Source: Whalleya microplaca
Taxonomy: Eukaryota; Ascomycota; Sordariomycetes; Xylariales; Xylariaceae
DNA length: 64,000 bases
NCBI GenBank assembly: GCA_022497155.1
Contig: MU385747.1
Coordinates: 62,001 to 126,000 of the forward strand
Reading direction: 5' to 3'
The notes beneath the pieces are model-generated. The model was not told where the DNA came from and did no database searches. It worked only from the letters and a program-made list of their open reading frames with translations. Both the position numbers and the translations under genes were made by a program. Below are positions 5,954-34,205 of this stretch, in pieces. Numbering within the stretch: position 1 is the first letter of the stretch; each line of letters begins with the position of its first letter.

Positions 5954-8900
5954 TCACGAGTCTCTAAAGTTCTTGAGCCTCTTCCTTAAGAAGACTGGGA
6001 GTGCATTTAGAACCACATCTCGGCGTCGACTCTTCCTCAGCTCGTGTTTATCATGTTGTATTGGAGGAGCATCTCCACCATGTTGATCATCTCCGCCATG
6101 CTGATCGTCTTCACCATCTGCCAATTAGTTAGCATTTAATATATATACATGTATATAAAAGATCGCAAAATGCCGACTCGCCTTTCATTTCCTTATCCAG
6201 CTTTAATAACAAATCTCGGGTATCCTGGACCTCTGTGTGTGACGGCCCAAGCATGGCTTCCAAACCAGTTTGCTCTCGTTCCAGCCATGACTTGGCTTCA
6301 GAGAGTCTGCCTTGCTTCCATCGCAACAATCCAAGGTTGTCAAAAGTGTTGAGTGCGGGGCGATGCGTCATTATAGCTCGTGGACCCATCGCCTTCTCAT
6401 ATCCTCCAAGAGCCCGTAAATACATGCCCTCGGCGTCTTGCAGATTTCCTTGCCTCTTGTAAAGGATTCCTAGGTTATTAACAGTATCTAATGTAGATGG
6501 GTGATCGGGCCCCAATTGTTTCTCATATCCTCGAAGCGCTTGTAGATACATGTCCTTGGCATCTTGAAGCTTGCCTTGGTCCATATAAAGGAGTCCGACG
6601 TTATTAATAGTATTTAATGTCGATATGTGATCGGGTCCCAATTCCTTCTTATATCCTCGAAGAGCTCGTAGGTACATATCCTCGGCACTTTGCACTTTAC
6701 CTTGATACGCGTATAGGAGTGCTAGGTTGTTAATCGAATTCAGTGTCGATCTGTGATCGTGTCCCAATTCCTCCTCATATCCTCGAACATTCCGTAAGTA
6801 CATGTCCTCAGCATCTCGCAGCTTGCCTTGGTCCCAGTAAAGGGTTCCTAGGTCATTAAGAATGTCTATTGTCGACATGTGGTCGGGCCCCAATTCCTTC
6901 TCAAATGCTCGAAGCGCCCGTAAGTACATATCCTCGGCGTCCTGTGGTCTAGATTGGTATTGACAGAGAAACCCTAGATTGCGAAACGCCCATCCCATAT
7001 TGCTGTAGCTATCCGATACTGTGGCGGAACATCTCAAAGCATGTGGCAGGGGCCGTCTTCCAAGTAGCCACATCGGAGGCCCATCTCTTGGATCTCTTGG
7101 TGGAACTTTTGATGCTACGCATTTCATGGAAAGCTCTGACAGGCTGGTATCCCACTCTTTATTTAAGACGTAAATAGTCCATGAATGTACGCAGGGGTGG
7201 ATGCTATATCCTCTTGATCCGATCAGATCCGGAGCTGAGGCGTGTGGCTCAACAAATCCATAGTCATGTAGCGTACCAATAGCGTTGTGAAAGCTGAGTT
7301 TATCAGATAGTTCGCACGCCCATACCGGCCTGTCTGGAATATCATTTTGTAGAAGTTCAAACCAAATATCTTCGTTGTCGAAATAAGCCCACCATCGTAG
7401 TAGGTGGGCGGCGAGTGGATGTTGTTTCTGAATTTGGACGAAGGAGAGCTCCCATGTTGAACAGAGCGTACGGTCTTGGTAAGAGCCTAAGTTTGGGGTA
7501 CTTGTCTGAAGCCTGCTCCACGACTCCTTGTATAGGGAGAGGTAATCAGAGAAGCTAATTGCGACGCGTCTCAGGTATGCCCCAGCTGTGGCAAGGGCCA
7601 GAGGAAGTCCGTCAAGTTCTTCCATGAGACTCTTAGCATCATCGCCTATAACAAGAGTTAAGGATGTTCTGCCTAATTCAAGTGTCAAAGATATGCCTTG
7701 CTTACTATATTGAAGGTCGTTTCGACCCGAGGTTGTTGCTAGAATTTGAAGGGCGTCGTCGATTGACTCAAGCTTTCTTATCCGCATGGGATGGCCTACA
7801 TCCAATTGTGATGAGCGTGTTGTGATGATGACCGAGCCTTGATACGCCTCAGGAAGAAAACGATTAATATCAATTCCAGTATCATCCGGCCCATTAGCTA
7901 GCTTTGGGTTGTCAAAATTGTCGTATATGAGAAGCCACCTGGTATTGCTTGGCAAGCTGAGCCAGGTCTTGACGGCGTTGATCGTCTTGGCACTGTCCTG
8001 GAGATCCAATCCACGGAGACAACTGGCATCTGGATGCTGCTGCATTATTTGCCTCGCCGCCTTCACAAAGCTTTGCTGGATAGAAGCCTCGTCTTTCACG
8101 CTTAACCAGATTACAGCCGAGTGTTCATCCCTGTATCGTTTCGCGTATGTAATAGCAAGCTGTGTTTTTCCAATGCCCCCAAGGCCATGGAGAACAACAG
8201 AGCGACGGGCGCCATCCGAGCCCGACAGCACTCTGTGTATCTCTACCAATTCTCTCTCTCTCGCGACGAAATTTTGTATTTCAGGAACGTCAGTAAGACT
8301 GAAGGTAATACAGAATTCCTCGTATTTAGCTCCTATTCGAGTCAGTCTCCAGACAGAATCTAGTCGTTGAAACTTGGAACCAATCTTTACCCTTTTTAGC
8401 CTTCTGGACCTCCTCTCGCAGTCTCTTCTGTGCATTTTGTCGCCCTTCGCCGTAGATGAGAGGCATATGAACGTCAAATATTCCGAACAAGGAATATACC
8501 ATGTCTTCTTCGTGTTTTGTCTGACGATTACGGACCCATGCTTCTCTTTCTACGATGAGGAAGTCAGATAAGGGGTCACCACGGAGTGCACGGACAGGGA
8601 TGCCTGTGATATTGCATAATTGATGCTCTAGAGACTTTTTGTCCCCTAAATATACCCCTTGCATTGAATAAAACTCGACCACGGCGGGAGCCAGGAGCTC
8701 CTGCAGCGTCCATCCACGACTATGCCATCTGCTATTTTGAAAGGCACCCTCCCAAGTCATTATTCCACCCGCATCGGCCGTGGTCGCGTCAGTCGGGATG
8801 TGGGAAACGTCAGAGAGATAAACGTAACATCTTTTCGCATCACGATACCACCGAAACATGCTGTTTATGGCAGTCTGAAGCTCAATGCTATCCGATTTAT

Positions 8901-9144
8901 CAATGCAACAGGTGTCGACCCAGAAATATCGCAACCCATGTTGTTTTGCCTTTTCGGCACAAAACCGAATCTTATTGTAGCCCACCTTCTGTTGCCAGCT
9001 ACTCGGCGCCTTGTCTATGTCTGCAAAGAGCACCTCTTCGGGTCCCCATGTGTGGGAAAGAATCGCATAGGAAGGAATGTTATCGGAAGGAAGGTCTGGA
9101 GTAAGGGTATAACCGCCATCGTCATTACGTTGTAATAGTCGCAT
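5954..9144 (-). CDS. HET / NB-ARC / TPR NLR-like protein
   Basis: Proposed exons are 8391-9144, 7706-8332, 6182-7645 and 5954-6117, about 1002 residues. The N-terminal HET domain (residues about 1-250) shows SYAILSHTWG, GLRYFWVDTCCIDK and SRGWTLQELLAP. A 58-nt intron joins KKG to AKYEEF. The NB-ARC ATPase follows, with P-loop GLGGIGKTQ (301-309), Walker B-like WLLIYDNFDN, GSVIITTRSS and LDGLPLALA. Six TPRs of about 42 residues (consensus LGPDHxSTLxTxNNLGxLYxxQGKLQDAEDMYLRALRGYEK) form the C-terminal sensor. A 60-nt in-frame segment (7646-7705) inside the NB-ARC has GTAAGC..ATAG ends and, if spliced, restores family length. The last exon uses a GC-AG intron (6118-6181) with a GCTAAC branch point. 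Such proteins act in heterokaryon incompatibility and programmed cell death. The start at 9144 is the usual HET start. Confidence 0.87.
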
Positions 9145-9956
9145 TGCAGCGGCCTTAGGATTAGGATGAGGGCGGGTTTGAAGGTCAGGTTTTGTGTCCG
9201 TAACTTATGAGAGACTTCGAGGCATTCCAACAAGCTGTATGTGGTAAGCGGACTGACAAATCGGAGTGTTGAGAGCTAACTGATTAATACCATCTCTCGT
9301 TCTCGCGTCCCTTGTTCTTGAGGAGGCAGGACTCTGGGTCAGAACACCACCACAGCTTCCTACCGAAAACGTCAAGAAGGTTTTGGCATCTGTCAAAACC
9401 GATAAAATAGGGTTTAACACACAAATATATTTAAAAGGGAGATGCTCGTCATTGAATAGCGCTGTGACTGTAGAAGGTTGCTTTACCTGATGAAGATAGA
9501 TATCCCCTTCGTCGTGAGAGATGCCTGATATCAGGCGATCGTGCGGGGTATAAGTAATCCCTGAACTGGCTCAGCCACAGAAAAAAACACATTTCTGGGC
9601 ATTTTGATGCCTGATAAGCCTAGCATTACCATCATCCTTCGAGTTGTCGCTACATTACAAATGCCTGAGTTTACTCGCGATGTTGGATCAAAAAAACTAA
9701 CGAGAAAAAAAGTCGTAGCTGAACTAGTGGACTGCGAATAATATTTTAAATATATATAAAATAAAATTTTTATAATTAATTTTTATACTAGCTACAGGGT
9801 CCCTTAAAAGCCCTATATCACTTTTATTAATTTTATAAGGCTTTTACAAGTAATTATATTGCTTATACGAGACTTAGGAGACCGTAAGACTAATCCCGTA
9901 CAGTCCGTAAGTGCGACTTATTTAAGTCCACAGCTACCCTCAATATTTTGTTTCAA
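9145..9956. other. NLR 5' flank and short AT-rich relic
   Basis: No gene is supported. The proximal part is the NLR promoter region. From about 9720 to 9860 the composition turns strongly AT-rich (runs of TATATAA, TTTATAATTAATTTT), like the RIP block at 34-54 kb, suggesting a short degraded transposon fragment. Confidence 0.4.
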
Positions 9957-29261: not shown

Positions 29262-31038
29262 GAGGGCTAGCTGCATGTAGCTCGCGAGGGCAAGAAAGAA
29301 AGAAAGAAAGAAAGAAAGAAAAAAAAAGAAAGGGGTAGGTAAAAGGGCTGTCGCTAAAGCAGACCAATGACCAACTAGGGTATATACCTCATACCACACC
29401 ACACCATACGGGAGAAAGCGGCGATCAGGCGTTGTGCGGAGTTTTCAGGTGGGTTTTCGACGTGTAGGAACTATACAAGTAGGTCCCTACAGAGAGGTAG
29501 AGGTTTTGGCATATAATACTGTGTATTTTACAGCTCGGAGGCGGAGAGCAACGCACCTCGGTAACGCGTGATGATTTGAAAGAAATAATAAATACACTCG
29601 CCTATCTATTGCGACGGTTCTGGACTATTGATTTTGGCTTTTTTTATGAGAGTGTGTGATATACATGTAGATGGTGTCGAGAAGAAGGATTCTGCGTGTT
29701 TTGCATTGCTTGTGTAATGGATTGTCGAGTGCTCGGGTATGTAAATACAAGACTAACCTAGGACCAAGTTCATGGGAGATAACTTGAATATGTGTTCGTA
29801 ATAACAATTGAGTAGCACATCTTGTTGGCTTATTGCAGCCCCTGATCCACGAGAGGAGTCCAAGAAATCTCTGTCTTCTCCTTTCCAAGCGTTTACTGGA
29901 TCGTGGTATTGCTTCTGAAACTCTTTTCCTAGGGTTATCCTTTTATGTCCAATCTTGCCAAGTCTTTTTTATGTTCTTTCTCGAGACATCCAGGTCGAAA
30001 TATACAAGTGTCATAATCTTGGTCGTATTGTCCTCCTCCAAGTGGCTTTTCCAACAACACCAGTAATCTTAATAACCAATATCAATGATAGTATACGAGG
30101 AATTTTCAGCTGACGTGAAGCATGTTCTCGTCCTCATCAAATGAGGCATTAGGCAATTAGGTCCATATCGACAAGTCACTTGATCGAGGGCCAAGCACCC
30201 ATTTTGGCCATCACGCCTCGCCTCAGGGGTACGTATATCGCCTTGCTAGGCTGGACATCACGCGCATTCAGAAAAGTACTTTGCATTCCCCTAGTATTGA
30301 GGCAATACTATTGAGGCAATACTCAGATAGTGTTCCTTCCTGAAATTTTTTTGTTTCAGGCTCAATGATTTAATACAAGTCGCCGCAGGACTTGGAATAT
30401 GAAATGCTGCTGCTTTCTTCGCCTTCCGTATCTCATCCACAGACAAGTTTAACCCGAGTCAACGATTCCTCTTCTCATTTCAGACCTTGCAGGTAGATAG
30501 ACAGAGAACCTTGGAGACTCGATGTGCTAGCTCAGCCCGTTATGACTCAATGTTCTTACTTGCCTGGCCGTACCTAGACATGTTTAACTGTGACTCTGTG
30601 ATTGTCATTTCTATACTTGATTTTAGACTGATTCTCATCCGCCCAGTGCCTCCTAATTATTGCATCAAGTCAAGGACTTACTATAGAGGCTGATAATGCA
30701 CAATTCAATATGAGGTTGCGCCTCATCACCATGGAATATTTAACCTAGTCACTATCGGTGAATTCTCAATTTCAATCAAGGTGGCTCAGTGGCCGACCAG
30801 CATATTCTTCACAACCTTTGCAGGCCCTCCCTCAAGTAAACCTACTGCGCAGTTTCTTCTATGCACTCGGTGAAATCTCCTCTATCAATTGGTAAGTGGT
30901 CTATTAGAAGACATTCACCAAAGTAAGCTCTATCTGTGTCCTCATTGACATATCCATGGCGGTCGCAGAGCGATCAGAGCTTCTATATCAATTATCGCGA
31001 TCAACATTCCATCAGCGAATCCTGGTTCGTCTAGCTCG
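29262..31038. other. Intergenic, no supported gene
   Basis: Begins with an (AAAG)n tract; the remainder has only short motif-free ORFs. Confidence 0.4.
29292..29331 (+). repeat. (AAAG)n microsatellite in heme lyase 3' flank
   Basis: About eight AAAG/GAAA units plus an A-rich end lie 30 bp after the stop codon. Confidence 0.85.
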
Positions 31039-31142
31039 GGCATTTGGTCTAGGGGTATGATATCTGCTTCGCACTTAGATACACGCTATCTAAACATATA
31101 GTGTCTGCAGAGGGTCCTGGGTTCAATTCCCAGAATGTCCAT
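31039..31142 (+). tRNA. tRNA-Ala(CGC), intron-containing
   Basis: The acceptor stem GGGCATT/AATGTCC folds with the G3-U70 wobble that identifies alanine tRNAs. The D-arm/A-box is TGGTCTAGGGG and the T-arm CTGGG-TTCAATT-CCCAG contains the B-box. The anticodon stem TCTGC/GCAGA encloses the loop TTCGCA..T with anticodon CGC at 31071-31073. A 32-nt intron (about 31075-31106) occupies the canonical 37/38 position. A T5 terminator follows at 31145-31149. Confidence 0.9.
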
Positions 31143-31565: not shown

Positions 31566-31712
31566 GGGCAATTGGTCTAGGGGTATGATATCTGCTTCGC
31601 ATTAGACGATCAATAGTGCATGCAGAGGGTGTAAGTCTAGGTCCAGACAAACTATGTTGAAATGATTGGCTAACAGAAATACTTAGCCTGGGTTCAATTC
31701 CCAGATTGTCCA
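31566..31712 (+). tRNA. tRNA-Ala(CGC) with an additional intron-like insertion in the variable loop
   Basis: The acceptor stem is GGGCAAT/ATTGTCC, keeping G3-U70 and showing a compensated T6-A67 to A6-T67 change against the first copy. The anticodon is CGC at 31598-31600. A 19-nt canonical intron (31602-31620) sits between positions 37 and 38. After GCAGAGGGT the gene is interrupted at 31631-31686 by 56 nt starting GTAAGT, containing GGCTAAC and ending CTTAG. Removing it restores GGGT-CCTGGG exactly as in the first copy, followed by an intact T-arm. A T7 run lies at 31740-31746. It could be a functional gene with an unusual second intron or a recent pseudogene. Confidence 0.8.
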
Positions 31713-34205
31713 CAGCATCTCCTTAGAATTTAGGAATTCTTTTTTTGCTTCTTCTCTGGCTTAGTCGAGTCTTCTATGTTGTCAAGTAATTGTAGACATG
31801 ACTGATGGTGGAGAATTCCCGTGTCGCCAAGATGATTACAGTACGGTAGGCATAGTATCAGATGGCGGATTTACCCCTCCATAAAAGCACAACTCATTCA
31901 GTGTTCTTTTTCATTCATGTTCCTATTTATTGCTAAATTTCTACAACTTCTTGACCCACTTACAGCGTTGAAGACCCGGAAGCCCAAGACACTGGTAATC
32001 AATATTGCCTCCAGCGCCAGCAGGCCGATCCAGAGTTCATCCACAAGAGTCGCCTGGTGACCGCCGAGTATGAAACCCTCGAAACCCCGCAAGAGCGGGG
32101 TGTGAGATGTGTTGTGAGGTACGCGCAGCATCCAGAATGAGTCTGCTGGGGCGTGCAACGTGCTATGCATACATAATAGCAGATTGGCCTGGACTGTCAA
32201 TACCTATTGCGAACATCTTCGCTTCATGGATCGAGGTGAAAAAGTCAAATTTGGTTGGTTCGGGAACACTTACATGTCATAGAAGTGGATGCGCTTCGAA
32301 ATCACAAGCCAGTCAGCCAGGTGCTAGTCAGACTTGGTGGGATTTAAAGCTCAGTAGACCAACAGATCTGTAAGTTTGCAGCGGATGTCGCTTGCCTTCA
32401 TGGTTACAATTCCGTGGGTCGTATGTATTGGCTCCGAGCAGATCTTGGGGCTTAAGTATCCCGCATCCCCGGATTGGACACGGTGGCGCATCGCCGGATC
32501 TCGACAGGATCTGAACACGTTACGCCAAATCTCGATAATATGGGATCGTGGGATTGCAGTCATGCAACCCCATCCATCGCACAAACACAAACGCCCCCTC
32601 CCCCTCTTATTAATGTCATAAGTCCGCTCTCAGCTGAAGGATATCACGCGCGGGATGTGCAGTTGTGTTACTTTAACCGTCTAGTTTGCTGCATACGTCA
32701 GATTCACCATGACTGTTTCGTGTGTCCTGTGCCAGGGTCTGATTGTCTATGCTATCCTCAATCCCAAATCCTAAGTTAGGTATTGGTTAATTTCATTGTG
32801 GCTAAGTTCCATGTTGTGGCTTAATACCACGTATCTGACCCTTTGCAAAAGAAGCTGGCCTGATAACCCACAATCCTGTCATCGTCATTTCCAACGAAGC
32901 TTAGAACATGAATCACATTATCGTCCAAAGCAAACCGATCCCTAAAGTTTCTTTCTTGCTCTTCTACTCAAGGGAATGCGGTTTTCACCATTGATAGATA
33001 GAATAAAATGATTAGCATAAAGGCACCCTACTCCGTACACATGACTATATTGGGGGACTTAGGAACTTTGGTTATATATCAATATGTATATTGTATACAT
33101 CATTCAAAGCGTTCACTAAGGCAATTATCTCTTTCTGATTTGTTGTGATATCTATGTTCTGGCATAGCAGATTGACTACCTACTAGCATATCAGCATAGT
33201 AGCCATTCCGTGGCTATCTATAACACATTACTAAGTGTTTTCTATAAAACACCATGCTCTCAAGGGTGTCATAGACTGCTTGATAATATAATTGGTAACC
33301 TGGAGCCTTTGTTCCATTGACCACTGTTTAATAATACCTGGACTCTAGTGCTATATCATGAAAACAAACCGTAAGCCCTCTAAGTGGCAAGGTCCTATCG
33401 GAGGCCAGCTGCGATAAAACGATGTAGAGATATGCTCGTTAGAATGAGCTGGAACCTGATGTATCATGAATATTCACTCCGATTCATAAGAAATCCCTGG
33501 TTGACTTCTTTTTCTAGGTGAACGAGGGGGATGACTGAAATGATTCGTAACAGATGCGCGCGTGTTAGTTGCTATGTTGTAAATTTCCTAACGCTCCAAA
33601 TTTGCACAAACTTCATTCAAGTATGACTCAATATGAGCCCTTTGACTAAGCCACCCTATGTATAACATGTGAAAGTGCGTTAGCAAACATTTATCTAGGA
33701 AGATAGTTTGCGATTTATTTATCTCCGTCCTCTCCAGCCATGTTATTGCATGATTTAAAGAGAGGACTCACCAACTGTTTGGAGTCGCATCGAATTGGAA
33801 ATGGCCACCAACGCAGTCATTGTCAGAAGGCTAAGTGACTCATATGTAATCTCCAGGCTTATATGCTATTTCTCGTTATAAAACGCCGTGGATTTTCCTT
33901 TTCTTGAGAGGATCTTGGATCGTAGAGCTCTGTAATCACAAAGCAAGGCGGTGCTGTATTAATTGTACCCAAAATATACTCTTAGGCTCGACTAGGATCT
34001 AAACAGCCTCTCCTATTATTACCAACTCGGGCTATCATCGAGACCTTTGATTAAAATAACGAGGCCTTCCACGCAATCTGGCAACTATTCTTTTCTACAC
34101 AGATCATTCCAAGTTTAGACCATGTGCCAAGAATAGAAACATAAGGTTACATGCGTGGGATGCGGGAAGACCCGTCTGCCAAGGATCAAGTTCTATAAAT
34201 TGGGT
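31713..34205. other. Gene-poor interval left of the AT-rich island
   Basis: A minus-strand ORF at 31898-32200 has one hydrophobic segment (ELWIGLLALEAILITSVLGF) but no recognisable family and no joinable exons. Otherwise nothing is supported. Confidence 0.35.
31740..31746 (+). terminator. Pol III T-run terminator
   Basis: Seven T residues 28 nt after the second tRNA-Ala gene. Confidence 0.55.

Follow-up and report, generated by a model that had tools for sequence, protein, structure and literature searches.

The tRNA-Ala(CGC) gene at positions 31566-31712 of the window, the whole stretch of 64,000 nucleotides of the Whalleya microplaca genome that was analysed (contig MU385747.1, positions 62,001 to 126,000), carries a 56-nt insert in its variable loop. 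Judged from its sequence, the insert is probably a U2-type spliceosomal intron residing in a nuclear Pol III tRNA gene, and this gene would be one of at least three of its kind in the genome. The interrupted gene is accompanied by an intact gene of the same anticodon, both on the forward strand and 528 bp apart from start to start. The features of the pair are as follows.

31038..31141, forward strand: intact neighbour tRNA-Ala(CGC), with a 37/38 intron of 32 nt at 31074-31105 (Rfam tRNA, ARAGORN)
31566..31712, forward strand: interrupted copy of tRNA-Ala(CGC), discriminator base included (Rfam tRNA and model R1)
31573..31583, forward strand: A box TGGTCTAGGGG of the interrupted gene
31602..31620, forward strand: canonical 37/38 tRNA intron of the interrupted gene, 19 nt (comparison with the intact copy, model R1)
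31631..31686, forward strand: spliceosomal-type insert, 56 nt, at tRNA positions 47/48
31631..31636, forward strand: 5' splice site GTAAGT of the insert (sequence)
31670..31674, forward strand: branch-site-like CTAAC of the insert, the branch A being followed by 13 nt to the end
31683..31686, forward strand: 3' splice site TTAG of the insert (sequence)
31691..31701, forward strand: B box GGTTCAATTCC of the interrupted gene, 107 nt after the A box
31740..31746, forward strand: T7 run, a likely Pol III terminator, 27 nt beyond the end of the interrupted gene

The intact neighbour scored 49.6 bits against the Rfam tRNA model. The interrupted gene was missed by the ordinary Rfam scan of the window; a permissive scan of 281 bases gave it 37.1 bits (cut-off 29), with the 56 nt treated as a single insertion. 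The score was 64.8 bits with model R1, our own tRNA model, which was built partly from the cores of the interrupted Ala and Pro genes. Without the insert, the 72-nt core matches the intact gene (31038-31141) at all but one acceptor pair, T6-A67, which is changed to A6-T67, and the G3-U70 pair is kept. An earlier note on this DNA had described the insert with GTAAGT, CTAAC and TTAG, the second intron at 37/38, the covariation in the acceptor stem with retention of G3-U70, and the restoration of the neighbour's sequence upon deletion. All of these were seen again, with exact coordinates and unique boundaries, the restoration being complete but for the one compensatory pair. Outside the cores, the two copies have diverged in their flanks and anticodon introns: apart from short low-scoring matches, only the tRNA pieces are still similar. 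ARAGORN fitted the interrupted gene with a single 70-nt anticodon intron; this fit was rejected because it would break a 10-nt block, TGCAGAGGGT, that is identical to the neighbour.

A whole-genome search for A and B boxes lying too far apart, in which the patterns contained no splice signals, was then run. Five A/B-box patterns gave 3, 1, 0, 2 and 1 matches, seven altogether, and the reversed-pattern controls gave four. In three of the seven long-gap matches, a tRNA gene is interrupted at a place other than the anticodon loop; one is the Ala gene of the window, which was the starting point, and two are new. Both new inserts were found by their A-box/B-box spacing.

L068 1514-1567: insert of 54 nt in the D loop of a tRNA-Pro(AGG) gene, with GTAAGT, CTAAC and AG
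L060 (= L069) 253-314: insert of 62 nt in the T stem of a tRNA-Lys(CTT) gene, with GTAAGT, CTAAC and AG

Similar to the Ala gene, the interrupted Pro gene also has a 37/38 intron. The Lys gene scored 45.2 bits against Rfam tRNA. The Pro gene as a whole was not recognised by the Rfam tRNA model, a permissive scan of 281 bases returning only the T arm at 14.4 bits, and model R1, to which it had contributed, gave it 54.4 bits. Its identity as Pro follows from the match of 67 of 72 core bases to an intact Pro(AGG) gene. The remaining matches were rejected as interrupted genes: L075 is a gene for tRNA-Gln whose 37/38 intron is long, L074 contains no convincing tRNA, and L066 and L067 belong to another tRNA-like family, whose anticodon region includes a long stretch. 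This family comprises three tRNA-like genes of 110-128 nt (L066 1490-1617 and 1049-1158; L067 1490-1610; minus strand) that are followed by T-runs; they have similar acceptor stems which still pair, and all share a one-base bulge in the T stem.

The count of three interrupted genes is a lower bound, since the search cannot see genes whose A box differs or whose insert lies anywhere but between the A and B boxes. ARAGORN fitted the 59 other tRNA genes with at most one anticodon-loop intron, and it mis-fitted the window gene in the same way, so these fits are no proof that the others are free of inserts. A concatenated-tRNA query, which is no census, gave 69 candidates, 40 of which were scored and yielded 41 matches, most of them genes in full length. 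Five places were new with respect to the genome list of 61 tRNA matches (three Ser-like genes and a Thr pair), and a 5' portion of the interrupted Lys gene was recovered; the window Ala pair and the interrupted Pro gene were not recovered. The list of 61 is itself incomplete, an intact Pro(AGG) gene being absent from it. The idea that Pro(AGG) has no intact copy was dropped when a further search found that gene. By ARAGORN anticodons, Phe, Cys, Trp and Gly(GCC) are absent among the 61 matches of this incomplete list, for which interrupted genes could be one cause.

The three inserts have splice signals in common. GTAAGT stands at the 5' end of each, and the branch A is followed by 13 nt in Ala, 12 nt in Pro and 13 nt in Lys; the 3' ends are TTAG, CCAG and GAAG, respectively. 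The Lys insert departs from YAG with its AAG and has a second CTAAC further upstream. In a register test, the Ala and Pro inserts could not be slid, and the Lys insert could be slid by -1, +1 or +2 with the product unchanged, so that GT-AG is one of four equivalent registers. Each of the three has a putative U2-type 5' splice site (for Lys in one of the four registers) and a putative branch site at the usual distance, and its excision restores the tRNA exactly. Chance rarely produced such signals. In 100,000 shuffles of the Ala insert, the strict signals appeared 0 times and the relaxed fungal consensus once; with a model of local base composition the figures were 0 and 10 in 200,000. Shuffling of the Pro insert (100,000 times) gave 0 strict and 0 relaxed, and of the Lys insert (100,000 times, the four registers not being allowed for) 0 strict and 2 relaxed.

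The cores of the interrupted genes are well conserved. The Ala core differs from its intact paralogue at 2 of 72 positions, the Pro core at 5 of 72 (against L071), and the Lys core at 3 and 2 of 73 in comparison with two intact sequences (of the three intact Lys genes, two are identical). All of these differences affect acceptor-stem pairs, and pairing is kept in each case, sometimes as G-U. The acceptor-stem changes indicate long service as a tRNA, a period that may pre-date the insertion. Minimum free-energy folding with the insert removed gave a full cloverleaf for Lys, whereas the Pro fold lacked the D stem and the Ala fold was no cloverleaf; these two genes were judged against the intact ones. 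Intact promoter boxes, core and terminator are found in the sequence of all three genes. The A and B boxes are kept throughout, and T-runs follow at +27 in Ala, at +4 in Pro and, late, at +50 in Lys; among the 59 other tRNA genes, 58 have a T4 within 49 nt, and the Ala (+27) and Lys (+50) runs are counted as distant.

The chief rival to the splicing reading is that the three are dead copies, that is, redundant tRNA genes which received spliceosomal-type introns too recently for decay and are now silent or give RNA that stays unspliced or is degraded. All three interrupted genes do have intact isoacceptors (one for Ala, at least one for Pro, three for Lys), and for this reason none of them is shown to be essential. 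However, all three cores differ from their paralogues only by pairing-preserving acceptor changes and retain full splice signals, and a search of the genome at E up to 10 found nothing else that resembles any of the inserts, which speaks against very recent copying. A real pseudogene looks different: in an inverted duplicate of Thr(AGT) (L076, 123-209 on the plus strand and about 540-607 on the minus strand) one arm, read by eye and serving as the single control, is a pseudogene that has kept its intron, with a changed T arm and a lost 3' acceptor strand. Taken together, we consider it unlikely that the three genes are dead.

The earlier note had also raised transcription of the locus by Pol II. 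The loci would then be parts of longer RNAs which the introns serve, and the tRNA would be carved out later or never. Spliceosomal introns do normally reside in Pol II transcripts, but no positive evidence for this proposal emerged. The A and B boxes are kept with T-runs downstream, TTTT is absent from all three tRNA inserts, and removal of the insert yields a tRNA three times over. We regard Pol II transcription as the explanation of the inserts as quite improbable.

Non-canonical tRNA introns, cut by the endonuclease at a bulge-helix-bulge as in archaea, nucleomorphs and Cyanidioschyzon, offer another account of the inserts. Such introns exist (PMC4090602, in the part available), and in Pro a central helix of four pairs can be formed in 2 of 49 registers. 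However, both of these registers have only one of three pairs in the exon helix, and Ala and Lys reach at most three of the four central pairs in 49 registers each, a weak test given that shuffled sequences reach four in 358-567 of 2000. Within the same limits (49 registers per insert, with four central pairs in 358-567 of 2000 shuffles), the full motif was not found in any insert. In addition, the spliceosomal signals would have to be coincidence. We hold this account to be very improbable. Catalytic introns were also considered. An intron of 54-62 nt is too short to be a self-splicing group I or group II intron, and Rfam scans of the Ala, Pro and Lys loci gave no match to a group I or group II family.

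Spliceosomal-type introns are the preferred reading of the inserts, and support for it comes from a second class of Pol III gene. The genome search found a sole match to U6 snRNA, a count that is a lower bound, and this U6 gene appears to be interrupted by 53 nt.

L070 1484-1536: U6 intron of 53 nt, with GTAAGT, CTAAC and CAG, between GATAC and AGAGAAG

In the Rfam U6 alignment the 5' half runs into the 53-nt stretch and the 5' exon is not displayed. When the 53 nt are taken out, the match to the Rfam consensus letters rises from 40 to 48 columns and the score from 56.0 to 71.9 bits, and a GCC-TTCG-GGC hairpin stands at the 5' end. The proposed 5' exon is our own reading from the extended consensus match and this hairpin. 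The branch A is followed by 11 nt, and the intron contains GGTTCAACTC, which resembles a B box; a B-box-like sequence in a U6 intron has been reported for Schizosaccharomyces in a paper cited in PMC10484740. If the genome has no other U6 gene, the survival of the cell depends on splicing of this Pol III transcript.

Candidate introns in open frames were sought in 168,823 bases as GT-AG stretches, 45-90 nt in length, that join two such frames. There were 23 candidates, surely a mixed set, in which 7 of 23 start with GTAAGT, 5 of 23 have CTAAC near the end and 2 of 23 have both; the branch A of two predicted introns is followed by 13 and 12 nt. Exon joins were read through for nine candidates, and three of the products were scanned with Pfam: the junction at 266 falls inside a GH5 domain (residues 97-375), while those of the other two products lie outside their spermine-synthase and ABC1 matches. 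The putative splice signals of the tRNA inserts are therefore of a kind present in this genome, and they are closer to consensus than those of the mixed candidate set.

Introner-like elements have been reported in fungi (van der Burgt 2012, as cited in PMC8476143), and the earlier note had named an introner-like element as one possible source. However, a search of the 48 Mb genome at E up to 10, which skips words very common in the genome, gave only the self-match for each of the three tRNA inserts and the U6 intron, and the four have only words of 7-8 nt in common with one another. Of the claim that an introner-like or retro-spliced intron had entered a Pol III gene, the spliceosomal-type intron is well supported by sequence, on the signals and on three tRNA genes plus U6, and the introner is not supported, no second copy being found at that sensitivity. 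We give the least credence of all to the inserts being copies of such a mobile element; an extinct and diverged introner family is possible. If the three tRNA inserts derive from other introns, the lack of any similar sequence at E up to 10 would mean that this did not happen recently or that the donor has been lost. Reverse splicing is a possible origin, by which an intron would have entered the tRNA gene. It has been proposed for the fission-yeast U6 intron, which lies near the catalytic nucleotides of U6 (PMC10484740, in the part available). There is no such closeness for a tRNA, and the tRNA cases would therefore require a more general route of intron gain.

Based on these comparisons, we propose the following maturation of the Ala tRNA. 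Pol III, directed by the A and B boxes, would transcribe the gene as far as the T-run. The spliceosome would remove the 56 nt in the nucleus before end maturation, as would be required for U6, and once the insert is gone the T arm could fold. RNase P and RNase Z would then trim the ends, and the tRNA endonuclease would presumably act last on the 19-nt intron at 37/38. In wider terms, we lean towards a class of nuclear tRNA genes that need the spliceosome (for the D loop, variable loop and T stem) together with the tRNA endonuclease (for 37/38, in Ala and Pro). The spliceosome would then regularly process uncapped Pol III RNAs whose 3' exons measure about 20-70 nt, and spliceosomal introns could colonise any class of RNA, including classes that do not come near the spliceosome.

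Spliceosomal introns in fungal U6 snRNA have been described by Tani and Ohshima and by Canzler et al. 2016 (cited in PMC5832005 and PMC10484740). Similar to these, the tRNA inserts are GT-AG introns with a branch site in a small structured Pol III RNA gene, as is the U6 intron of this genome. Unlike them, their host is a tRNA and no part of the spliceosome, so that closeness to the catalytic centre cannot explain the site, and the Ala and Pro hosts carry an endonuclease-type intron as well. The introns of fungal U3 have GTRWGT, RCTRAC and YAG, with a mean distance of 15 nt from branch to acceptor, in the part available of Canzler et al. 2017 (PMC5832005). The signals and distances of the tRNA inserts fit these, except for the AAG of Lys, whereas the U3 introns cluster in one 5' stem-loop and the tRNA inserts lie at three unrelated places. 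According to the same text, frequent interruption by an intron was known at that time for no small structured RNAs other than U3 and U6. As for tRNA introns, the inserts resemble those of archaea, nucleomorphs and red algae (PMC4090602) in being extra introns outside 37/38, sometimes beside a canonical one; the archaeal and red-algal introns, in contrast, need a bulge-helix-bulge, and the present inserts have spliceosomal signals and gave no full motif over the 49 registers tested for each. Canonical fungal 37/38 introns are present in the Ala and Pro genes, from which the inserts differ in place, length and signals. Non-canonical introns of eukaryotic tRNA genes were assigned to nucleomorphs and Cyanidioschyzon, and other insertions were held to be likely pseudogenes, in the available part of Yoshihisa 2014 (PMC4090602). 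No paper on tRNA genes with spliceosomal introns came up in a search of titles and abstract openings that had limited coverage of subscription journals and preprints. The non-canonical intron step of tRNAscan-SE 2.0 is described for archaeal tRNAs in the part available of PMC8450103, and an interrupted fungal tRNA gene could therefore go unannotated. If the reading is true, spliceosomal introns would extend from U3 and U6 to the core RNAs of translation, and splicing would work on short uncapped Pol III transcripts. The genes would also be clean test sites for intron gain, with a fixed host sequence, a known pre-insertion site and intact sister genes as controls.

Elsewhere in the window, an AT-rich block at 34001-55000 starts 2-3 kb from the tRNA pair, with a GC content of 16-36% per kb and a GC skew that is positive along the greater part of the block. 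It looks like a repeat region mutated by RIP. Pfam matches show that HET and AA9 genes are present; together with the candidate short GT-AG introns and the AT-rich block, they indicate a filamentous ascomycete. On the minus strand, an ORF at 6129-8549 with NB-ARC and TPR domains overlaps a second minus-strand ORF, at 8326-9204, which has a HET domain.
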